DNA of 64,000 bases from Acetobacterium sp. KB-1 (lineage in GTDB: Bacteria; Bacillota; Clostridia; Eubacteriales; Eubacteriaceae), in assembly GCF_003260995.1 (NCBI RefSeq), contig NZ_CP030040.1, positions 990,578 through 1,054,577 on the forward strand, given 5' to 3'. Made by a program: the position numbers and the translations under genes. Of the stretch, positions 16,846 to 25,850 are shown in pieces. Numbering within the stretch: position 1 is the first letter of the stretch; each line of letters opens with the position of its first letter. The notes beneath the pieces were generated by a model. That model was not told the DNA's origin and made no database searches. It saw only the letters and a program-made list of their open reading frames with translations.

Positions 16846-17847
16846 CTAAACACTTTTGTTTTCGTCCATTTTGTTAATTATTTCACTTGCCAGTGTTTCA
16901 GTAATAATCAGATGCTTAAAATAACCGGTTTTCAGCCCACTGATAATCGAAGCAACATTAGCTTCCTGAGGCACAAATCCGATGACATCTCCATTAGCTT
17001 CCTGAGGCACAAATCCGATGACATCTCCATTAGCTTCCTGAGGCACAAATCCGATGACATCTCTAACTCGGGCTAACTGCTCTAACGGAATTTGAATGGC
17101 GAAGTCATCCTCACTCTGAATTAATTCCCCCTGAGGATTAAAAAAATATGTGAGCAGGCAACCGACAGCCTTTTCTTTGATTAGTTTTCTGCCAAACCGC
17201 ATTGCTGAACCATGGTCCGGTACTGAGGGAAAGCTTCCCAGGGTTATCAGTGCTGTTGTCGTCTTTTTCCAATAGTCTTCGATGCGTTTATAATCTTCAG
17301 TCGCCATCACCTGAGCCTGCTCTTTGGCGGTGGCGGGAATGGCTGGGCAATTAAGAACTTGACCGAGGCGATCAGTTTTTTGAGCGAGCGCCTTGACCAG
17401 ATCATCTGGGTGATAACCACGCTGGGGCGCCGTTATTGCGCCAATAAGCGGACAGATTACACCGCTATTAAGTTCTCCCGGACTTTTTTTTAATTTGGCA
17501 ATAATCTTATCAATATTATAACCCCAACCCAAACCGAGTATCTTTGTTTTGGGCAAGAATTCCACGAGCACATCTGCCCCAATTTGATAAAGATCGTCCG
17601 GCAACGTCACCACACGACAGCTTTTTAAGTTAAAAAGGTGACACAATTCATGTCTGATTCCTCTGATCGTACGATGGTAGGAAAGTACATCAATTTTTAC
17701 GATCCCCGCTTTTCTGGCCTTATTTAAAAGATAACTGACCGCAGGACGTGATATATCTAGATCTCTGGCAATTTCAGACTGGGTTTTGTTTTCCTCATAA
17801 TATAATTGAGAAACATGTATTAAACGGCACAATTCTTTTTCTTTCAA
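16846..17847 (-). CDS. SorC/DeoR-type sugar-binding transcriptional regulator 1 (with internal repeat)
   Basis: A SorC-family regulator of 333 residues: N-terminal helix-turn-helix (YYEENKTQSEIARDLDIS) and a C-terminal phosphosugar-sensing domain of the NagB/DeoR fold (GLGWGYNIDK, CPLIGAITAPQRGYHPD). The family includes LsrR, CggR and SorC. It is a clear paralogue of the regulator at 21828-22751, but near residues 262-297 the 12-residue unit DVIGFVPQEANG is present three times, where the paralogue has it once. Two TTG codons are candidates for the start; 17847 is chosen because it has better spacing from GAGGTG and aligns with the paralogue's ATG. Its promoter is at 17884-17912. It faces the two-component genes tail to head. 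Confidence 0.9.
   Translation of the reverse strand: MKEKELCRLIHVSQLYYEENKTQSEIARDLDISRPAVSYLLNKARKAGIVKIDVLSYHRTIRGIRHELCHLFNLKSCRVVTLPDDLYQIGADVLVEFLPKTKILGLGWGYNIDKIIAKLKKSPGELNSGVICPLIGAITAPQRGYHPDDLVKALAQKTDRLGQVLNCPAIPATAKEQAQVMATEDYKRIEDYWKKTTTALITLGSFPSVPDHGSAMRFGRKLIKEKAVGCLLTYFFNPQGELIQSEDDFAIQIPLEQLARVRDVIGFVPQEANGDVIGFVPQEANGDVIGFVPQEANVASIISGLKTGYFKHLIITETLASEIINKMDENKSV
16956..17063. repeat. 36-bp tandem repeat, three copies, inside sorC1
   Basis: Three head-to-tail copies (16956-16991, 16992-17027, 17028-17063) are identical except at their outer ends. They are in frame and triplicate a 12-residue segment. There are no spacers, so this is not a CRISPR array. Confidence 0.97.
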
Positions 17848-17883
17848 CAAATCACCTCACCTTGACGCTTTAAATGCAGATAT

Positions 17884-17912
17884 AATATAACCCATTCATC
17901 AGCTTTTGTCAA
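17884..17912 (-). promoter_or_regulatory. sorC1 promoter
   Basis: On the minus strand TTGACA (17907-17912) and TATATT (17884-17889) are 17 bases apart, about 35 bases from the sorC1 start. Confidence 0.82.
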
Positions 17913-17933
17913 TTTTACGGATTTCCTTACAAT

Positions 17934-18794
17934 TTAGTCCAGAGGAATCAAAATTGTGCATTTAAAGCGATCATCGAGGATTTGAGTCACCATGTTTCCT
18001 TCGTAATTTTTCAAAACCTGTTTAACATTAGAAATACCATAACCACTTTGATTGTCCTCAATCCGTTTGCTACTGACCATGTTATTCCCCGCTTTTTGAA
18101 TCGTTGTCCGATCAATGGTGTTTTCAATGTCAATGAGCAAGCTCTCCCGCTTGTAGTACATATTAAACTTGATAATTTTATCATGATTCTGCCGGGCATC
18201 CCGCAGGCATCCCTCAATGGCATTGTCCAGAACATTCCCCAGTATAATCGACAGATCGATACTGTTCATTTTCAGGTTTTCCGGAATCGCAATGTAATGA
18301 TCAAAATTTATCTGATGATCAGATGCAACCTTGATTTTATAGTTTAGCAATGCATCGACCACATAATTTCCAGAACGATTATGATCCACCGCATTCTGAA
18401 GCAATTCGTGAAACTGCTTCAGGTAATCTTCGATTTCATCAAAAGCCTGATTCTTGATTAAATACTGCATGGTAATGATATGGTTGTTCATATCATGCCA
18501 TAATCCTCTTACCTCATAGTTCTTTTCCAGCATTTCTTTATAGTGTTTTTGTTGGAGTTCCAACTGAACATTTGCCGTCTTATATTCATTTGTCTTTTTA
18601 GACTCATGATCCCATACTTTAAAGATTATGAAAATAACCACATTGATATAGACCAGGGCACCCAGTGAAGCGAATCCTACCAAATGCCGACCTTCAACAT
18701 GAACATCAATAAGATAAAGGTTCATGCCGACAATTAAACTGATAACCGGAATACTAATCAGTATAATATTTCGAATGATTGAAGAATTCTTCAT
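17934..18794 (-). CDS. GHKL-type sensor histidine kinase (AgrC/CitA-like)
   Basis: A 286-residue membrane histidine kinase. Two membrane helices (about residues 10-29 and 39-60) are joined by a very short outside loop, followed by a coiled coil, the phospho-acceptor region LWHDMNNHI and a GHKL ATPase domain (ILGNVLDNAIEGC, SGYGISNVKQ). The HDMNNH form is that of kinases that pair with LytTR response regulators. The start overlaps the response regulator stop by four bases (ATGA). The small sensory part suggests a membrane-embedded or cytoplasmic signal rather than a large external ligand domain. Confidence 0.88.
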   Translation of the reverse strand: MKNSSIIRNIILISIPVISLIVGMNLYLIDVHVEGRHLVGFASLGALVYINVVIFIIFKVWDHESKKTNEYKTANVQLELQQKHYKEMLEKNYEVRGLWHDMNNHIITMQYLIKNQAFDEIEDYLKQFHELLQNAVDHNRSGNYVVDALLNYKIKVASDHQINFDHYIAIPENLKMNSIDLSIILGNVLDNAIEGCLRDARQNHDKIIKFNMYYKRESLLIDIENTIDRTTIQKAGNNMVSSKRIEDNQSGYGISNVKQVLKNYEGNMVTQILDDRFKCTILIPLD

Positions 18795-19504
18795 TCCATC
18801 GATCCCGCCATATACCGCGTGAAGGCATCGTAAACTTTCTGATTTCTTTTGGGACTGATTGGAATCATCACACCATTTTTTAATACTGCCATTTTCATCT
18901 TGATGCTTTTTACATTCTTGAGATTAACAATATAAGATCGATGACATAAAACAAAGCGAACTGGATCAAGCTCTTTTTGTAGTGCTGTGATCTTATCGTA
19001 GTATTCATACGCCTCATCAAAGGTAACGACTTTCATTTTTCTGCCAAGACTCTCAAAGTATAGTATTTCATCACTTTTTAAAAATATTTTTTCATTGTTT
19101 ATATCAATTTCATAAAAATTAGATCTTGCGTTTTTTATGTCATTTTCCAGTTTTTCTAAAACTTGAAATAATTTTTCTTGCGGGAATGGTTTTAATAAAA
19201 AATCGCTGGCGCTAACTGAATAACCCAAAACAGCATATTCAATTAAGGATGTTGTAATAATAATACGGGCAGTATTACCCGATTTTCTGATTTCATTTGC
19301 GATATCAATCCCATCTTCCTGATCTAAGCGCATGTCTAGAAAAATAACATCAAACGCACTACCACGGTTACTTGCTGCAATAAGTTCATAGCCATACTGA
19401 AATGTGGTTAAACAATAATCGGTTTTAAATGGATATCGACTAATCAGATCTACCAGTATTTTTTTATGTTGTTCCTCATCTTCGCAGACTGCAATTTTTA
19501 ACAT
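18791..19504 (-). CDS. LytTR response regulator
   Basis: A response regulator of 237 residues with an N-terminal receiver (CEDEEQ acidic pocket, FLDMRLDQEDG with the phospho-acceptor Asp, then TSLIEYAVLGYSVSASDFLLKPF with the conserved Lys) and a C-terminal LytTR DNA-binding domain (ILYFESLGRKMKVVT, FVLCHRSYIVNLKNVKSI). LytTR proteins bind direct repeats about 21 bases apart. The ATG at 19504 is preferred, with AAAGGTG upstream; a TTG at 19543 lacks a ribosome site and lies too close to the promoter. It is divergent from dhaK1. Confidence 0.92.
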   Translation of the reverse strand: MLKIAVCEDEEQHKKILVDLISRYPFKTDYCLTTFQYGYELIAASNRGSAFDVIFLDMRLDQEDGIDIANEIRKSGNTARIIITTSLIEYAVLGYSVSASDFLLKPFPQEKLFQVLEKLENDIKNARSNFYEIDINNEKIFLKSDEILYFESLGRKMKVVTFDEAYEYYDKITALQKELDPVRFVLCHRSYIVNLKNVKSIKMKMAVLKNGVMIPISPKRNQKVYDAFTRYMAGSME

Positions 19505-19549
19505 CTTTTCACCTTTTATTCCAGCCGAAACTGAACTTTTCAATGAATT

Positions 19550-19578
19550 ATTATATCGTATAAATGTTCTTGTTACAA
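19550..19578 (-). promoter_or_regulatory. Promoter of the two-component operon
   Basis: On the minus strand TTGTAA (19573-19578) and TATAAT (19550-19555) are 17 bases apart, 45 bases from the response regulator ATG. Confidence 0.75.
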
Positions 19579-19616
19579 TCTTTTACTCTCATTTCTCCTC
19601 TTTCTGTTATTTTTGA

Positions 19617-19645
19617 TGACATCAAACTTTGTTTTCGTGACATCA
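19617..19645. promoter_or_regulatory. Direct repeats TGACATCA, 21 bases apart, upstream of dhaK1
   Basis: TGACATCA occurs at 19617-19624 and again at 19638-19645, a spacing of exactly 21 bases. LytTR regulators bind repeats with this geometry, and the second copy ends just before the putative dhaK1 -35. The half-site TGACAT also occurs in the candidate SorC operators, so a SorC protein is the alternative binder. Confidence 0.5.
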
Positions 19646-19648
19646 TTA

Positions 19649-19677
19649 TTGTTTTAAACGTCAAAATTTGCTAGTAT
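19649..19677 (+). promoter_or_regulatory. Candidate dhaK1 promoter
   Basis: TTGTTT (19649-19654) and TAGTAT (19672-19677) are 17 bases apart, 110 bases before the ATG. Both boxes are weak, which would suit activation from the adjacent direct repeats. Confidence 0.45.
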
Positions 19678-19787
19678 TAATTATTCCCATTCGATTTAAG
19701 TTTTTGGTAAATTGTGATTATAATATTACCTCAAAACATCAGTTGGAATTATTCAATCAAAACGTTAAAATACAAAGGAACCCCGTC

Positions 19788-20786
19788 ATGACGCTGAGAA
19801 AATTCATTAATAAACCGGAAAACATAACCTCCGAATTACTAGAAGGTTTGGCACTGGCCAATCCATTTCTTCTCGAGGTAAAACCCCATAATCTTGTCGT
19901 CAACAAAGGACTTAAAACGGCCAATCGTGTTACGATTGTAACCCTGGGAGGATCTGGTCATGAACCTGCCTTTGAAGGATTTGTTGGCGAAGGCATGATC
20001 GATGTTGCTGTTGTTGGTGATATCTTTGCTGCGCCTGGATATAAGGCTGTTCTTGAAGCACTTCGTCTTGCCGACAAGGGCAAGGGTATTGTTTTAATTG
20101 TCTTAAACCATGCCAGTGATATGCTGGCTGGAACCCAAACCCTAGAAGAAGCACGTCGTGCCGGAATCGCGGTATCGATGGTTGTTACCCGGGAGGATGT
20201 TGCCTACGCCCCCCGTACCGCTGCGGACAGACGCCGCGGTCTGGTGGGATGTGTCCCCCTTTATAAAATTGTCGGCGCAGCCGCCGCCCAGGGGAAATCC
20301 CTTCAGGATGTTACTGCCATTGCTCAAGACTTTGCCGATAATATGGCTACCATAGCCGTCGCCTGCAAAACAGCTACTCATCCTCAAAACGGTTCCGCTT
20401 TTTCGGTCCTTGGGACTGATGAAATGGAAATTGGCATGGGCCAGCATGGCGAAGGTGGCGGTGACCGTCAAAAAATGAAGAATGCCGATGAAACGGCCAT
20501 TCTGATGACCGATTTGCTTATTACCGATTTAAACCTCTGTGCTGGCGAAGAAATTATGGTGATTGTCAATGGTACGGGGTCTACTACGATCATGGAGATG
20601 TTGATCATTTTTAGATGCGTTCATAAATATCTAAGTGCGAAAGGGATCCGAATTGTGGCAAATTGGGTTGAAGAAGTTCTAACCGTTCAGGAACAAGCCG
20701 GATTTCAATTGTTTTTTGCCCGCATGAATGCACAAAACCTCTGGTATTGGAATGCACCGGCACGTACGCCTTATCTGGTGCGATAA
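19788..20786 (+). CDS. DhaK-like dihydroxyacetone kinase subunit 1
   Basis: A 332-residue DhaK-fold protein that would bind a small ketone or ketose covalently. Catalytic residues match E. coli DhaK: the His of GGSGHEPA, the Asp of NHASDMLAG, and the substrate-binding His of MGQHGEGGG (the E. coli form is GIHGEPG). The change from GEPG to GEGGG marks a distinct DhaK branch. It is strongly similar to the product of 23971-24969. The ATG at 19788 follows AAAGGA; the longer frame upstream shows no similarity. It stands alone between a promoter and a terminator, with no DhaL directly beside it, and so must use the DhaL at 22957 or another. Confidence 0.85.
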   Translation: MTLRKFINKPENITSELLEGLALANPFLLEVKPHNLVVNKGLKTANRVTIVTLGGSGHEPAFEGFVGEGMIDVAVVGDIFAAPGYKAVLEALRLADKGKGIVLIVLNHASDMLAGTQTLEEARRAGIAVSMVVTREDVAYAPRTAADRRRGLVGCVPLYKIVGAAAAQGKSLQDVTAIAQDFADNMATIAVACKTATHPQNGSAFSVLGTDEMEIGMGQHGEGGGDRQKMKNADETAILMTDLLITDLNLCAGEEIMVIVNGTGSTTIMEMLIIFRCVHKYLSAKGIRIVANWVEEVLTVQEQAGFQLFFARMNAQNLWYWNAPARTPYLVR

Positions 20787-20840
20787 AGACCTGATTCTTT
20801 TAAAGTTTTAGCCACTCCTAACCTGCTTATTAACAAAATA

Positions 20841-20880
20841 AGAACGTCGCGAATCAAAAACGAGATTCGCGACGTTCTTT
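20841..20880. terminator. Bidirectional terminator between dhaK1 and the deoR-type gene
   Basis: A 16-bp perfect inverted repeat (20841-20856 with 20865-20880) with an AAAAACGA loop, followed on the plus strand by TTTATTTTT. Confidence 0.9.
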
Positions 20881-20891
20881 ATTTTTAAACT

Positions 20892-21659
20892 TTAAATCAT
20901 CTCAATACCATTACTTTTACAGTATTCCCTGTATATCTCTGGGACTTTATCATCCAAGACAAAACCGTCGAAAACATTCAAATCAATCATTTTTGTCAGC
21001 GAGACCTTATCAAACTTCGAGTAATCTGCCATGAGGTAACGCTTGCGACTGATTTCATGAATTGTCTGATTGATTTCTATCTCTTCAAAAGCACCATGCG
21101 TAATCCCTTTATCAATTGACACCGCCATCACCCCTATGAATGCCTTATCAATATTGAAACTTTTTAAAAATTCATTGGCCTTTTTACCGTAAAATGCACC
21201 AGAAAAACTGCGAAGCTTCCCGCCCGGCATATAAACCGTGATCCCAGAAATAGCGGATGCCTTTAATGCGGCACTTAAAGAGAGCGTAATTAAATTAATA
21301 TCTTTGATGTTTTCAAGATAGTCAAGCATCAGTTCGACGGTGCTACCGGAATTCAATGCGATCGTATCGCCGTTTTTAATAAGCTTGGCGGCTTTTTGTG
21401 CAATGAACCGCTTCTCTTCAATATTCTGGGTCCTTTTTTTATAAATATCCATTTCGGACGTCGTCTGATAGTTAATTTTTTCTTTTCGAAAAGCTCCCCC
21501 ATAGGACAAGGTAATCCCATACTCCTCAGCTAAATATTTTAAATCCCGTCGGATTGTCGCCTCGCCGACACCATACTTTTCTGAAAGACTGGCCACCTTA
21601 ACCGAACCTTTGCTCATAATTGTGTTTAATATTTCTTTTCTGCGGTCAATATGTAACAT
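20892..21659 (-). CDS. DeoR/GlpR family transcriptional regulator
   Basis: A 255-residue DeoR-type repressor: N-terminal winged helix (VASLSEKYGVGEATIRRDLKYL) and a C-terminal sugar-phosphate sensing domain with GDTIALNSGSTVELM and SKFDKVS. Members of this family sense phosphorylated sugars or DHAP-like intermediates and repress catabolic operons. It lies between the two dhaK genes, so those are its likely targets, but no operator is obvious. AAGGAG precedes the ATG. Confidence 0.92.
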   Translation of the reverse strand: MLHIDRRKEILNTIMSKGSVKVASLSEKYGVGEATIRRDLKYLAEEYGITLSYGGAFRKEKINYQTTSEMDIYKKRTQNIEEKRFIAQKAAKLIKNGDTIALNSGSTVELMLDYLENIKDINLITLSLSAALKASAISGITVYMPGGKLRSFSGAFYGKKANEFLKSFNIDKAFIGVMAVSIDKGITHGAFEEIEINQTIHEISRKRYLMADYSKFDKVSLTKMIDLNVFDGFVLDDKVPEIYREYCKSNGIEMI

Positions 21660-21827
21660 CTGTTTTCTCCTTACTCAATATCGTTATTTACCCAAACTAA
21701 GTTTCACAGATTATCAAGGATACTATATTTTGCTAAAGACCAGAGTATACAATGATATATAAATTGTACCTACAAATCATTTTTAAAGCAAGCATAACCG
21801 CATCAAGTTAATCAAAAGAATCACGTG

Positions 21828-22751
21828 TCAATTGCTTTCAATTTGATTCAAAACGTCCTTTGCATTTTGTTCTGTGATCACCAGATGTTTGACATAACCG
21901 CTCTGCAAACAACTGATAACTGCATTGGTGTTGGATTCTGGAGGAACAATACCAATAACATGTTTGATCCGTGTCAAAAGTCTTAAAGGAATTTGAATGG
22001 CATAATCATCATCTCCGGAAATCTGTCCGCCTTGCACATTAAAAAAATAAGATAGCAGACTTCCGACCGCTTTTTCCTGAATGAGTTTCTTACCAAACCG
22101 CAGCGCCGTCCCATGGTCTGGAACCAGCGGAAAACTACCCAGCGTCATAATTGCTGTATCCATTTTCCGCCAGCGCTCAAGAATATTTAGATAATTATTG
22201 GTATTCATGAATAACTCCTGATCTTGTTCGGTAGTTGGAAAAGCTGGACTAATTAAATATTCTGCCTGAAACCCTGTTTTATGTGATAAATCAGTGGCCA
22301 ACTCATTGGGATGATATCCTCGATGGGGCACAGTCGCAGTTCCAATTAGGGGACAGACAATGCCATGGGCCGTTTCGCGAATATTTGTCTGGGGCAAGGC
22401 GTCAATGATTTTATTGATATTATATCCCCATCCCAGGCCTAAAACCTTGCTTTTCTCAAGAAAACTTAATAAGACCGTTGCCGCCTCCTGATGGAAAGCC
22501 TCTGCCGATGCCACCACATGACAGGTTTTTAGATCAAAACGGCGACATAGGCCCTGACTCAAACCGATGTTGGATTGTTGATACGAAAGGATCTCAATTC
22601 TTACGATCCCCTCTTTTCTGGCCTTACTCAATAAACTACTCACTGAGGGTCTGGAAATATCCAAAATCCTGGCAATTTCTGCCTGTGTCTTGTTCTCTTC
22701 ATAATATAATTTTGAAATGTGAATCAATCGTATTAGTTCTTTTTCTTTCAT
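21828..22751 (-). CDS. SorC/LsrR-type transcriptional regulator 2
   Basis: A 307-residue SorC-family regulator, paralogue of sorC1, with helix-turn-helix (YYEENKTQAEIARILDIS) and the phosphosugar domain (GLGWGYNINK, CPLIGTATVPHRGYHPN). It carries a single copy of the segment that is triplicated in sorC1 (HVIGIVPPESN). It is divergent from dhaL across 205 bases that hold three candidate operators. By analogy with LsrR it probably represses both directions until a phosphorylated substrate binds. Confidence 0.92.
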   Translation of the reverse strand: MKEKELIRLIHISKLYYEENKTQAEIARILDISRPSVSSLLSKARKEGIVRIEILSYQQSNIGLSQGLCRRFDLKTCHVVASAEAFHQEAATVLLSFLEKSKVLGLGWGYNINKIIDALPQTNIRETAHGIVCPLIGTATVPHRGYHPNELATDLSHKTGFQAEYLISPAFPTTEQDQELFMNTNNYLNILERWRKMDTAIMTLGSFPLVPDHGTALRFGKKLIQEKAVGSLLSYFFNVQGGQISGDDDYAIQIPLRLLTRIKHVIGIVPPESNTNAVISCLQSGYVKHLVITEQNAKDVLNQIESN

Positions 22752-22769
22752 TTGTTCACTCCATTTCTT

Positions 22770-22882
22770 TACATATGTCAGTCTTTATTTGTTTAATATA
22801 TAACAATATTCTACATATGTCAAGTTTTTGTCTGATTAATAAAATATTTCGAAATTTATCCGTTTTTTTGACTAACATATGC
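22770..22882. promoter_or_regulatory. Candidate SorC operator cluster
   Basis: TACATATGTCA occurs identically at 22770-22780 and 22812-22822, 42 bases apart (four helical turns). A third, weaker copy, TAACATATG, is at 22873-22881, 62 bases further (about six turns). The first overlaps the leader of sorC2, the second overlaps its -35, and the third abuts the dhaL -35. Same-face spacing suits the tetramers formed by SorC proteins. Confidence 0.65.
22795..22823 (-). promoter_or_regulatory. sorC2 promoter
   Basis: On the minus strand TTGACA (22818-22823) and TATATT (22795-22800) are 17 bases apart. The -35 is embedded in a TACATATGTCA operator copy, implying autorepression. Confidence 0.82.
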
Positions 22883-22891
22883 TATTTTTGT

Positions 22892-22920
22892 TTGACTTAT
22901 TGATCGACACTTGTTATACT
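22892..22920 (+). promoter_or_regulatory. dhaL-voc-dhaK2-lsrF promoter
   Basis: TTGACT (22892-22897) and TATACT (22915-22920) are 17 bases apart, 36 bases before the dhaL ATG and just downstream of the third ACATATG site. Confidence 0.8.
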
Positions 22921-22956
22921 AATGGCAAATATGTAAACGATTGTGGAGGTGATTTA

Positions 22957-23583
22957 ATGCCACTGGAACCCTTGAAAATCAAAGACTTACTCCTTGCCGC
23001 GGCCGGCGAAATTGCCGATCATGTTGAAATCCTAACTGAACTGGATTGCGCTCTCGGTGATGGGGATCATGGTACAACCATGAAAAAACTGACAAATGTC
23101 ATGTTTGACGAAATAAAAACCTGGAATCAAACCACCAACCTGAAAACAGGGTTAGAATCCCTCACTGATGCCTTGGAAGACGTCAGTGGTGGTTCAGCTG
23201 GCCCTCTGTTTGGCGCTTTTATTTATGGTATGGCTGAAGCCGCCGATCCTGATGCACCTAATACCGATACATTCATAAAAAGTATTCTGCTCGGAGCCTA
23301 TGACGAATTCTTTGCCACCTCCAAAGCGGTTGTTGGCGATAAAACCATGATGGATGCCATCTACCCGGCCACCGAGGTAATCCGCAGTTCCACCGCAGAC
23401 ATGAAAACGACTCTTAAAAAAGCTGCTCAGGCAGCCCGAACCGGATCTGATAACACGACCGGGATGCTGGCAAAATTTGGGCGGGCCCGATACATTGGCG
23501 ACCGCTGTTTAGGTCATAAGGATCCTGGCTCGGTTACCTTCGCCTTTTTCTACGAAGGGCTGGCCAAAGGATATTTAGCATAA
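22957..23583 (+). CDS. dhaL: DhaL-like dihydroxyacetone kinase subunit
   Basis: A 208-residue nucleotide-binding subunit that phosphorylates the substrate held by DhaK. The Mg-ADP/ATP site LDCALGDGDHGTTM carries the three conserved aspartates, and GGSAGPLFGAF and GARYIGDR-like loops follow (GRARYIGDRCLGH). The DGDHG form is compatible with either the PTS-type or ATP-type enzyme. No DhaM or EI/HPr gene is in the window, so the phosphoryl donor is open. The ATG at 22957 follows TGGAGGTG. It is the first gene of a four-gene operon. Confidence 0.88.
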   Translation: MPLEPLKIKDLLLAAAGEIADHVEILTELDCALGDGDHGTTMKKLTNVMFDEIKTWNQTTNLKTGLESLTDALEDVSGGSAGPLFGAFIYGMAEAADPDAPNTDTFIKSILLGAYDEFFATSKAVVGDKTMMDAIYPATEVIRSSTADMKTTLKKAAQAARTGSDNTTGMLAKFGRARYIGDRCLGHKDPGSVTFAFFYEGLAKGYLA

Positions 23584-23608
23584 AACTAAAATTAAAAAGG
23601 AGAAAAAA

Positions 23609-23929
23609 ATGTACGAAATTATGCACGTAGGTGTTCCCGTTACGGAACCGGTATTGGAAGAATTTTACGCCGAGGGATTAAAGGTTCATATTTCAGGGCC
23701 AGACAACAACCCTTTCAAGTTTGAGTATCTGAGATTTGAAGAAGGCACCCCCCTTCATCCTGATGTCGTTAATTTTAACCATATTGCCTACAAGGTTCCC
23801 AATATCGATACCTTTATCAAGGATCATCAGGCCCTTGTCTTAAACGAACGGATGACGGTTGACGAACATCTGGACATTGCATTTGTCAAAGTCGATGGCA
23901 CGGTTATTGAATTGATGGAAATAAAATAA
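23609..23929 (+). CDS. Small VOC-fold (glyoxalase/bleomycin-resistance-like) protein
   Basis: A 106-residue protein with a vicinal-oxygen-chelate-like pattern: IMHVGVPV at the start, NHIAYKVPNIDTFI in the middle and VIELMEIK at the end. The spaced His and Glu residues (H6, the His of FNHIAYKV, and the terminal Glu) are suitable metal ligands. VOC proteins isomerise or epimerise oxo compounds, which would suit a ketose or diketone pathway. It lies 25 bases after dhaL and 41 before dhaK2. The fold call is from motif pattern only; the reaction is unknown. Confidence 0.68.
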   Translation: MYEIMHVGVPVTEPVLEEFYAEGLKVHISGPDNNPFKFEYLRFEEGTPLHPDVVNFNHIAYKVPNIDTFIKDHQALVLNERMTVDEHLDIAFVKVDGTVIELMEIK

Positions 23930-23970
23930 ATTTAAACTGTTCTAAATAATTATTAAAGGGGGAAAATGTA

Positions 23971-24969
23971 ATGACAATGAAAAAGTTTATTAACAATCCG
24001 GATAATATCACGGCTGAATTATTAGAAGGTCTGGCTCTGGCCAATCCACAAATCCTTGAGGTGACCGAACATAATTTGATCATCAACAAAGGTCTTTCGA
24101 CTGCCGATCGGGTTACCATTGTCACCATCGGCGGTGCCGGTCATGAACCGGCTTTAGAAGGTTTTGTCGGCGAAGGAATGATTGATATTTCCGTTGTTGG
24201 GGACATTTTTGCGGCTCCCGGTTACAAAGCCGTACTGGAAGCGCTGAAACTGGCTGATAAGGGCAAGGGTGTACTTTTTGTGGTGTTAAACCATGCCGGA
24301 GATATGTTAGCCGGTGACCGAACCATGAAAGAAGTCGAAAAACTGGGATTAAACGTCATAAAGGTGGTCACTCAGGAAGACATCGCCAATGCGCCCCGCT
24401 CTGACGCTGCCAACCGCCGTGGGCTGGTTGGCTGTGTGCCGCTTTATAAAATCTGTGGTGCCGCTGCCGCGCAGGGTAAATCGTTGACAGAAGTGGCCGC
24501 GATTGCTCAGGATTTTGCCGACAATATGGCTACCATTGCCGTTGCCTGCAAAACTGCCACCCATCCCCAGAATGGTGCATCCTTTGCCGAACTTGGTGAA
24601 GATGAAATGGAGGTTGGCATGGGCCAGCATGGTGAAGGCGGTGGCGGGCGTCAAAAAATGGCTACTGCCGACGAAACTGCTGTGATTATGGCCGATGCAC
24701 TCCTTAAAGATCTGGCTCTGAAATCCGGCGAAGAGGTGATGGTCATTGTCAATGGTACCGGTGCCACCACCATTATGGAGATGCTACTGGTTTTCCGTCG
24801 GGTTCACCACTATCTCAGCGAAAAGGGTATTAAAATTGTCGCCAGTTGGGTCGAAGAAGTTTTAACAGTCCAGGAACAAGCCGGCTTCCAGCTTTTCTTT
24901 GCTCGTATGGATCCGGAAAAACTGGCCTATTGGGAAGCTCCGGCAAAAACGCCGTATTTGAGTCGATAG
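23971..24969 (+). CDS. dhaK: DhaK-like dihydroxyacetone kinase subunit 2
   Basis: A 332-residue DhaK-type subunit, paralogue of the one at 19788-20786. The DhaK catalytic set is intact: the His of GGAGHEPA, the Asp of NHAGDMLAG and the substrate-binding His of MGQHGEGGGGR. As in the paralogue, the loop after this His differs from the GEPG of classical DhaK. It is in an operon with dhaL and is followed by lsrF only two bases after its stop, so the three proteins are made together. Substrates could be dihydroxyacetone, erythrulose or a longer ketose such as the AI-2 precursor; the altered loop makes a non-DHA substrate plausible. Confidence 0.86.
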   Translation: MTMKKFINNPDNITAELLEGLALANPQILEVTEHNLIINKGLSTADRVTIVTIGGAGHEPALEGFVGEGMIDISVVGDIFAAPGYKAVLEALKLADKGKGVLFVVLNHAGDMLAGDRTMKEVEKLGLNVIKVVTQEDIANAPRSDAANRRGLVGCVPLYKICGAAAAQGKSLTEVAAIAQDFADNMATIAVACKTATHPQNGASFAELGEDEMEVGMGQHGEGGGGRQKMATADETAVIMADALLKDLALKSGEEVMVIVNGTGATTIMEMLLVFRRVHHYLSEKGIKIVASWVEEVLTVQEQAGFQLFFARMDPEKLAYWEAPAKTPYLSR

Positions 24970-24971
24970 CG

Positions 24972-25850
24972 ATGGCAGATCAGGATTCAATCAAAAAAGC
25001 CAAGGACTTTGGGTTTGACCGTCCAATGGCGAAACGGAATTTTCATGTCAAAGGAATGGATGATGTGGATTGGGGCATGAAGACCCGATTGTCAAAAATA
25101 TTTGACTCCCGCAGTGGTCATACCATTATGCTGGCCTTTGATCACGGTTATATCATGGGGCCTACCCAGGGATTGGAGCGCATGGATCTGGCCATCCCAC
25201 CGCTTTTAGACTATGCGGACGTCCTCATGGCTACCCGGGGCGCTCTGCGAACCTGTATCCGACCGGATCATAACAAAGCCATCGCCCTGCGTTGTTCTGC
25301 CGGAAGTTCGGTTCTAAAGGAGGATATGAGCAAGGAAATCATCGGTGTCAATGTCGAAGACGCGATCCGGATGAATGCAACCTGCATGGCGATTCAGGCC
25401 TTTATCGGGTCTGAACACGAATGCCAGAGTATTGAAAATATCATCAAAACCGTGGATGCTGGCAACCGATATGGCATCCCTACCCTGGGCGTGGTGGCGG
25501 TGGGTAAGGAAATGGAGCGAACCACCAAATACTTTTCTCTGGCCACCCGGATGCTGGCTGAATTCGGGGTCCAGATTGTGAAGGTCTATTACTGCGATAA
25601 CTTTGAAGAAGTTACAGCGGCCTGTCCGGTCCCCATTGTTATTGCCGGTGGTAAAAAAGTTCCCGAAAAGGACGCCCTGGAAATCACCTATCAGGCGATT
25701 CAAAAAGGTGCTGCCGGAGTCGATATGGGGCGGAATGTCTTCCAGGCGGGTAATCCGACGGCAATGATCCAGAGCATCCGTAAGGTAGTTCATGAAGGTT
25801 TTACCGGTGCCGAAGCCTTTGCGTTTTACACTGATCTTTCTTCTCGTTAA
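24972..25850 (+). CDS. lsrF: LsrF-like thiolase/class I aldolase of AI-2 catabolism
   Basis: A 292-residue TIM-barrel enzyme, nearly the same length as E. coli LsrF (291) and closely resembling it from the first residues (MADQDSIKKAKDF) to GVDMGRNVFQ. Recognisable blocks are MLAFDHGYIMGPTQGLER, ADVLMATRG, GKEMERTTKYFSLATR and VPIVIAGGKKVPE, whose Lys corresponds to the catalytic Lys of LsrF. LsrF transfers the acetyl group of 3-hydroxy-2,4-pentanedione-5-phosphate to CoA, giving DHAP and acetyl-CoA. The ATG at 24972 lies two bases after the dhaK2 stop. LsrK, LsrG and the LsrABCD transporter are absent here. A related class I aldolase activity cannot be excluded. Confidence 0.85.
   Translation: MADQDSIKKAKDFGFDRPMAKRNFHVKGMDDVDWGMKTRLSKIFDSRSGHTIMLAFDHGYIMGPTQGLERMDLAIPPLLDYADVLMATRGALRTCIRPDHNKAIALRCSAGSSVLKEDMSKEIIGVNVEDAIRMNATCMAIQAFIGSEHECQSIENIIKTVDAGNRYGIPTLGVVAVGKEMERTTKYFSLATRMLAEFGVQIVKVYYCDNFEEVTAACPVPIVIAGGKKVPEKDALEITYQAIQKGAAGVDMGRNVFQAGNPTAMIQSIRKVVHEGFTGAEAFAFYTDLSSR

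Follow-up and report, generated by a model that had tools for sequence, protein, structure and literature searches.

A conserved DhaK–DhaL–VOC–LsrF gene cassette in Acetobacterium sp. KB-1 as a candidate catabolic module for a short ketone-sugar

The window analysed here is a 64,000-nucleotide stretch of one chromosome of Acetobacterium sp. KB-1 (NZ_CP030040.1, positions 990,578 to 1,054,577), and the system in question is a compact cassette that joins a dihydroxyacetone kinase-like pair, DhaL and DhaK, to a small VOC (glyoxalase)-fold protein and an LsrF-type enzyme. On the forward strand, dhaL (about 22951-23583; Dak2 domain, nucleotide-side kinase subunit) is followed by the gene of a 106-amino-acid VOC-fold protein (23609-23929), by dhaK2 (23971-24969; Dak1 domain, substrate-binding kinase subunit) and by lsrF (24972-25850; class I aldolase-fold thiolase/aldolase), with a gap of two bases between the last two genes. 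A gene for a SorC-type regulator with a sugar-binding domain, sorC2 (21828-22751, reverse strand), diverges from dhaL across a control region (22752-22950) with promoter-like sites on both strands. A second set of genes, encoding SorC1, a GHKL sensor kinase, a LytTR response regulator, a further DhaK (DhaK1) and a DeoR-family regulator, lies before sorC2. All genes that a sequence-only reading had named in this island were found where it had placed them, by the list of open reading frames and by profile and domain scans. The closest relatives of DhaK2 (95-97%) belong to A. wieringae, A. dehalogenans and metagenome-assembled genomes (MAGs), some of them Acetobacterium.

The linkage of these genes was surveyed from the kinase side. 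GTDB representatives were searched with a DhaK alignment, and retaining the best 80 of 420 relatives gave 76 loci; two plasmid loci were added, and three Acetobacterium loci with a DhaK1-type gene only were set apart, leaving 75 DhaK2-type loci. Because the query was DhaK alone, the scan loci were not picked for LsrF or VOC; three of the four rows of the search alignment (DhaK2 and two plasmid DhaKs) themselves come from LsrF-linked loci. The 75 are to be read as loci and not as independent events, since they include several near-duplicate species (Phascolarctobacterium, Acetobacterium, C. difficile), and binning errors are possible in MAGs. DhaL adjoins DhaK in all 75, and the VOC gene is present in 72, with two of the three misses less than 500 bases from a contig end. 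As for the cleavage enzyme, LsrF occurs at 49 loci and a class II aldolase at 16; the other 10, among which L091 and L105 lie close to a contig end, have neither. At 54 of the 75 loci a SorC gene lies no more than 5 kb from DhaK; it is missing in 8/8 Eggerthellaceae and in both Bacteroidota plasmid loci. The hosts include Acetobacterium, Eubacterium, Clostridioides difficile, Phascolarctobacterium, several Eggerthellaceae, Synergistaceae, Propionibacteriaceae and the two Bacteroidota plasmids. Since loci picked on DhaK alone combine DhaL and VOC with, in most cases, a gene for LsrF or a class II aldolase, the DhaK–DhaL–VOC–LsrF linkage is conserved across distantly related bacteria beyond chance.

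Plasmids and control stretches were examined in the same way. Thirteen records of the plasmid collection match DhaK2, the best two being from Aureibacter tunicatorum (51%) and Parabacteroides distasonis (49%), and these are the only ones of the thirteen with a close LsrF, 0.7-0.8 kb further on; in one matching Shinella record LsrF is 176 kb away. Both Bacteroidota plasmid loci have the order protein of about 105 amino acids–DhaK–DhaL–LsrF, and these small proteins align with the 106-amino-acid protein of the window at 35 and 37% identity. Four control DhaK stretches of 9 kb each, taken from the other eleven plasmid matches, had neither LsrF nor VOC by sequence, and the VOC gene, sought at fetched loci only, was found in none of 25 control stretches, which hold DhaK, LsrF or lsr genes. 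Seen from LsrF, 18 of 19 non-module stretches lack DhaK and DhaL; the exception is a Klebsiella record (L128:7001-14864), in which glycerone kinase, dhaM and dhaL genes follow the lsr operon at a distance of about 3.4 kb and on the opposite strand. The module is also sporadic: DhaK2 was found at E 1e-100 in 0/397 other genomes of the phylum and LsrF at E 1e-60 in 1/244 other genomes of the class, and in the phylum sample four other genomes exceeded the LsrF cut-off, none of whose stretches (one of only 4.9 kb) carries DhaK or DhaL. A survey of dhaK-dhaL-lsrF neighbourhoods, which the sequence-only reading had proposed, therefore gives a double answer, in that the linkage is wide when seen from DhaK and is not universal when seen from LsrF.

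The kinase itself differs from its well-known relatives. In an alignment of 80 module rows (the 78 loci and both DhaKs of the window, numbered after E. coli DhaK), H56 is kept in 79, D109 in all 80 and H218 in 79 (one gap); in E. coli DhaK, these residues hold dihydroxyacetone. At 22 positions, 97% or more of the module rows share a residue that none of the seven control DhaKs has; the controls comprise a Klebsiella glycerone kinase, a pair of fused DhaKLs, two DhaKs from the same genome as the window and two others. For example, A80, L104, H106 and C153 occur in 80/80 module rows and H196 and Q217 in 79 (one gap for Q217), while the controls have S or G at 80, K or G at 104, Y at 106 and I or L at 217, and none of the seven has the module residue at these four positions. 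In sequence adjacency, 104 and 106 stand just before D109, and 217 stands beside H218. On the DhaK equivalog TIGR02363, DhaK2 scores 273 and DhaK1 264 bits against a cut-off of 406; the best NCBIfam match of DhaL is PRK14479, and it scores 126.7 bits on the DhaL model TIGR02365 (cut-off 138.3). By these sequence features the module DhaKs are a distinct subfamily and are probably not plain dihydroxyacetone kinases. No DhaM was detected among the ten island proteins by the domain scan. DhaK, DhaL and DhaM genes occur at two further places in the own genome; together with the module-specific DhaK positions, this makes plain dihydroxyacetone an unlikely substrate. An ordinary dihydroxyacetone kinase that happens to lie beside an unrelated lsrF would agree with the Dak1 and Dak2 domains and the intact catalytic residues, but it leaves unexplained the conserved linkage, the module-specific DhaK positions, the low equivalog score and the additional DhaK, DhaL and DhaM genes, and we regard it as highly improbable.

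The VOC-fold assignment of the small protein, made in the sequence-only reading, was confirmed by structure prediction. The protein has no Pfam or NCBIfam match at E 0.001, and an AlphaFold2 model built with 43 sequences reached a mean predicted local distance difference test score (pLDDT) of 96.4. In Foldseek, its best match was a Rhodococcus protein, followed by glyoxalase I of C. acetobutylicum, with methylmalonyl-CoA epimerase lower down, and a profile search found the glyoxalase I structures 2qh0 and 3hdp at E about 6e-6. H6, E39, H58 and E101 are invariant in 43/43 VOC rows (the window protein and 42 of the 70 scan-locus genes), and this set resembles the metal-ligand pattern of the VOC superfamily. 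By analogy, we propose that the protein may be a metal-dependent isomerase or epimerase that transfers protons via an enediolate. Compared with glyoxalase I and methylmalonyl-CoA epimerase, it shares the fold and has a similar His/Glu/His/Glu set, a putative metal site, but it is very short (about 105 amino acids), stands beside DhaK and DhaL and, in the window, lacks a Pfam match.

For the cleavage step, the window LsrF exceeds the cut-off of the NCBIfam equivalog for LsrF, PRK08227 (437 bits against 297), has the solved LsrF structures as its closest PDB matches, and is the sole LsrF match at E 0.001 in its own genome. An LsrF tree was built with 39 of the 49 module rows, leaving out ten near-duplicate module rows, L129 and L004-L008. 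In it, nine LsrFs from genomes with lsr operons (eight Bacillota-type, one from a Planctomycetaceae MAG) form one clade (100/100) among the module LsrFs, while the enteric LsrFs group elsewhere, together with the two Bacteroidota module LsrFs and those of Sagittula and Shinella, which belong to other operons; as the tree is unrooted, calling the lsr-operon clade nested depends on the root. Fifty-seven positions, including D57, H58, K204 and R254, are invariant over 37 module, nine lsr-operon and two enteric LsrFs. In all six tested genomes of the ten no-aldolase loci, LsrF is present elsewhere: in four beside lsr transporter genes, in the LsrK-bearing G676 on a short contig, and in G673 by itself. 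An lsr-operon LsrF thus seems able to serve the module, and the LsrFs of the module and of autoinducer-2 (AI-2) operons look interchangeable. The Sagittula (L127) and Shinella (L046) plasmids carry an LsrF 56-58% identical together with an FGGY kinase, a GlpD-like dehydrogenase, another aldolase- or SDR-type (short-chain dehydrogenase/reductase) gene and a sugar ATP-binding cassette (ABC) importer. These LsrFs probably act in another, non-AI-2 pathway, and for this reason the name of the LsrF equivalog may over-reach.

In the remaining loci with a cleavage gene, LsrF is replaced by a class II aldolase (Pfam F_bP_aldolase) whose relatives are fructose-bisphosphate, tagatose-bisphosphate and YdjI aldolases. 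Class II aldolases release dihydroxyacetone phosphate (DHAP) by retro-aldol cleavage and need no coenzyme A (CoA). The class II loci form two clades on the DhaK tree, one of Eggerthellaceae and one Lachnospiraceae-type, each nested among LsrF loci; they differ in gene order and share the module DhaK signature and the VOC family. Because a class II aldolase replaces LsrF in two clades, retro-aldol release of DHAP from a ketose-1-phosphate is favoured over an AI-2-specific thiolysis. A scheme in which LsrF cuts the ketose-1-phosphate by aldolase-type Schiff-base chemistry, with thiolysis of phosphorylated 3,5-dihydroxypentane-2,4-dione (P-HPD) as a special case, would account for both results, and we hold its chances to be about equal either way. 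Alternatively, LsrF-type and class II-type modules could be two pathways, one for an AI-2-like dione and one for a ketose, that share the kinase and the VOC protein only. The occurrence of two cleavage enzymes in otherwise equal modules is in line with such a split, as is the lsr operon with its own LsrF that two of the 11 tested class II genomes also hold, but both types carry the same DhaK signature, and each class II clade sits among LsrF loci on the DhaK tree, so we consider it rather unlikely.

Taking these results together, we propose that the core works as an independent module that catabolises a short ketone-sugar bearing a free CH2OH next to the C=O, a reading that we put at an even chance. 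First, the VOC-fold protein, as a putative metal-dependent enzyme, would isomerise or epimerise the substrate to a 2-ketose form. Second, DhaK2 would bind the ketose covalently via H218 and DhaL would phosphorylate the terminal CH2OH, giving a ketose-1-phosphate, as expected from the chemistry of the family and with the catalytic residues present. Third, LsrF, or elsewhere the class II aldolase whose replacement of it is observed in the gene order, would cut C3–C4 to yield DHAP and a small aldehyde. Finally, SorC2 would sense a sugar phosphate and control the operon. Our best guess for the substrate is a C5 ketose shaped like AI-2, such as a deoxypentulose or a ketopentose. Several points weigh against this reading. 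The known reaction of the LsrF equivalog is a thiolysis and not an aldol cleavage, and the position of Firmicute-type lsr LsrFs among module LsrFs would fit a common thiolase chemistry equally well. On the DhaK tree, three changes are needed to explain the class II label, which may have been gained twice and lost once or gained once and lost twice, so that a single gain is possible. The two variants, with LsrF and with a class II aldolase, may also differ in their substrates. The isomerase role of the VOC protein is one that we infer. Moreover, no transporter is consistently linked to the module loci, and no aldehyde-handling enzyme is consistently linked in the part of the neighbours scanned, where an iron alcohol dehydrogenase occurs in L113 only.

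The alternative closest to the sequence-only reading is an LsrK-independent breakdown of AI-2, in which the VOC protein would turn 4,5-dihydroxypentane-2,3-dione (DPD) into 3,5-dihydroxypentane-2,4-dione, DhaKL would phosphorylate it, and LsrF would thiolyse the product to acetyl-CoA and DHAP, with isomerisation preceding phosphorylation, the opposite of the Lsr pathway. This route would be chemically reasonable. The CHOH-CO-CH2OH end held by DhaK, which resembles dihydroxyacetone, is absent from DPD and present in its isomer; if the VOC protein made this isomer first, DhaKL would yield P-HPD, the known substrate of LsrF. In addition to the LsrF equivalog score, this alternative gains from the module LsrFs lying between two separate groups of lsr-operon LsrFs, from the SorC regulators and from the presence of LuxS in the own genome. 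It gains further from the distribution of LsrK, searched at E 1e-120. The query had no match in the own genome and matched eight of the other 50 module genomes: 1/33 with a local LsrF, 2/11 of the class II type and 5/6 without an aldolase, all of the last having LsrF elsewhere (Fisher p 6e-5 for no-aldolase against LsrF-local genomes, ignoring kinship). The placing of DhaK/DhaL in the kinase position of LsrK, as first read from the sequence, is accordingly upheld, since neither the own genome nor 32 of the 33 tested genomes with LsrF in the module gave an LsrK match.

Other evidence speaks against AI-2 as the substrate. Besides the class II aldolase in the place of LsrF in two clades, LuxS was found in only 14/33 of the LsrF-local genomes, compared with 7/11 of the class II and 5/6 of the no-aldolase genomes. 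Overall it occurs in 26/50 module genomes (no match in 24/50) against 36/199 phylum genomes including the own one, and we did not use this co-occurrence as support, since the counts ignore kinship and are no higher in LsrF-local genomes than in the other classes. No LsrACDB stands next to the module of the window, where no sugar ABC transporter was spotted by eye among the open reading frames up to 34.6 kb, and AI-2 chemistry of a DhaK is hypothetical. The eight LsrK-bearing module genomes all hold the lsr cupin, so they need no second route; in seven it lies beside LsrK, and in the eighth (G668) LsrK ends one contig and the cupin starts another. We had also considered that the VOC protein replaces a missing LsrG or cupin in lsr operons, and rejected this idea on the same cupin count. 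The cupin has no match at E 1e-10 in the own genome, and the VOC protein may take the role of LsrG or of the lsr-operon cupin there. On balance, LsrK-independent AI-2 breakdown is less probable than not for this module, and the evidence on the AI-2-type substrate of the sequence-only reading points both ways: the position of module LsrFs between two AI-2-operon groups favours it, and the class II replacement together with the genomes that lack LuxS disfavours it. Apart from these comparisons, an in-frame TAG interrupts the lsrF gene (L033:10072-10956) in the lsr operon (LsrK, cupin, LsrR, LsrACDB) of a Clostridium-like genome, G457.

The other half of the island proved to be separable. It comprises sorC1 (16846-17850) and the genes of the GHKL sensor kinase (17934-18794) and LytTR response regulator (18791-19543), all on the reverse strand and the latter two assigned by domain scan, and dhaK1 (about 19779-20786, forward strand), whose product is a paralogue of DhaK2 (75% identical). 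A terminator-like, 16-bp perfect inverted repeat (20840-20879) between dhaK1 and deoR parts the two units. In L055 and L056 the order SorC1–GHKL–LytTR / DhaK1 is retained and followed by lepA (named by eye; one small gene lies between in L056), and the DeoR–SorC2–DhaL–VOC–DhaK2–LsrF part is missing. LsrF had no match in five genomes (those of L054-L056 and two more Acetobacterium), whereas the same query matched 8/17 other tested genomes. The core is thus SorC2 with dhaL–VOC–dhaK2–lsrF, and the SorC1–GHKL–LytTR/dhaK1 unit is separable from it. DhaK1 lacks its own DhaL, and its branch on the DhaK tree is long (0.47 against 0.03), which suggests a sensor or auxiliary subunit; with GHKL–LytTR and SorC1, DhaK1 probably forms a separate sensing unit for a related ligand. 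The deoR gene (20892-21659, reverse strand) probably lies outside the pathway as well: in several close relatives its neighbour is an operon, absent from the window, that encodes URO-D-type, B12-binding, pterin-binding and FGGY proteins (domains from L053), and DeoR is probably a remnant of another operon. Corrinoid-methyltransferase-like and FGGY (glycerol-kinase-like) genes were seen beside deoR in L048, L049, L050, L052 and L053, between deoR and dhaK1 where dhaK1 is visible, and L051 seemingly keeps a fragment of this region. The original view of all island genes as one pathway is therefore not supported, as the L055/L056 unit stands alone in genomes that gave no LsrF match and DeoR adjoins another operon in relatives.

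Both SorC proteins score only 62.7 and 84.6 bits on the LsrR equivalog, far under the cut-off of 486, and for this reason we call them SorC-type and not LsrR proper; the sequence-only description of two LsrR-family (SorC) regulators holds for the SorC type, with its sugar-binding domain, and fails for LsrR. Two exact, nearly palindromic ACATATGTCA sites (22771-22780 and 22813-22822), 42 bp apart, lie in the sorC2/dhaL region. No other exact copy occurs in the 64 kb, and one to four sites with at most one mismatch are present in each of nine Acetobacterium/Eubacterium-type relatives, which makes them candidate SorC2 operators. In the ligand-binding domain of SorC1, the 36-base unit GDVIGFVPQEAN is present in three exact tandem copies (16956-17063), and SorC1 of L051, L055 and L056 has one copy; the triplication may disturb SorC1.

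The neighbours of the module were rejected as a clue to the substrate, as they are scattered genes with none common across loci. In Phascolarctobacterium-type modules (L074, L076, L079, L080, L094, L099, L106, L109 and L110), a gene for a TrpX-like substrate-binding protein follows, joined by ABC genes if the contig is long enough, and the TrpX-like protein of L080 scores 331 against a curated cut-off of 390. A pyruvate kinase gene follows the Eggerthellaceae module L060. The Bacteroidota modules L044 and L045 lie near genes for beta-propeller/cytochrome-type, chorismatase/RidA-like and very large SUMF1-domain proteins, hinting at a larger oxidation system. A DUF1097-type gene, a candidate membrane transporter, occurs in or beside the module in L044, L081, L111 and L113 (Pfam match in L111; annotation in L044).

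Compared with known systems, the module has several distinctive features. It resembles the Lsr pathway in its LsrF orthologue, in the set of a kinase, a small isomerase-like protein and a cleavage enzyme, and in its SorC-type regulator, but it has DhaK/DhaL in place of the FGGY kinase LsrK and a VOC protein in place of LsrG or the Firmicute lsr cupin, no LsrACDB was seen at the module, and a class II aldolase can replace its LsrF. It shares the DhaK and DhaL domains and the catalytic H56, D109 and H218 with the DhaKLM system, but has no adjacent DhaM, its DhaK carries conserved substitutions of its own, and it is linked to a C–C cleavage enzyme that would be superfluous in a dihydroxyacetone pathway. 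The 5-deoxyribose salvage pathway, or DHAP shunt, uses an MtnK/MtnA-like kinase or phosphorylase and an isomerase, according to Beaudoin et al. 2018 (PMC6079011), and would be alike in its ending, from a ketose-1-phosphate to DHAP and an aldehyde. It differs from the module, which has DhaKL and VOC; no MtnK/MtnA-like set is found among the island proteins, and MtnA is encoded elsewhere in the genome. MtnA exceeded the cut-off in 26/51 module genomes including the own one, and 5-deoxyribose salvage by complementarity was dropped because this count shows no pattern. A text search of the listings of open-licence papers found no description of LsrF joined with DhaK/DhaL. The protein families are known, and the cassette, the DhaK subfamily, the VOC partner and the alternation of LsrF with a class II aldolase appear to be undescribed.

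In conclusion, the cassette probably burns a small sugar-like molecule to an intermediate of glycolysis, and with four proteins and one substrate to be found it is a small, tractable set. Where annotation is visible, in the plasmid records, its parts are annotated as 'dihydroxyacetone kinase' and 'AI-2 thiolase', and if these annotations are wrong, dihydroxyacetone and AI-2 metabolism would be mis-assigned in many genomes. AI-2-like ketopentoses exist, since L-xylulose and L-xylosone have recently been reported as AI-2 mimics (PMC12921845). A widespread, LsrK-independent destruction of AI-2 or of AI-2-like ketoses such as these host mimics inside gut and environmental bacteria, mostly without LsrK, by a VOC isomerase, a DhaK-type dione/ketose kinase and LsrF can be put forward tentatively, as a minority expectation. 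If the substrate is AI-2 or a mimic of it, many bacteria without lsr operons would be hidden signal consumers.

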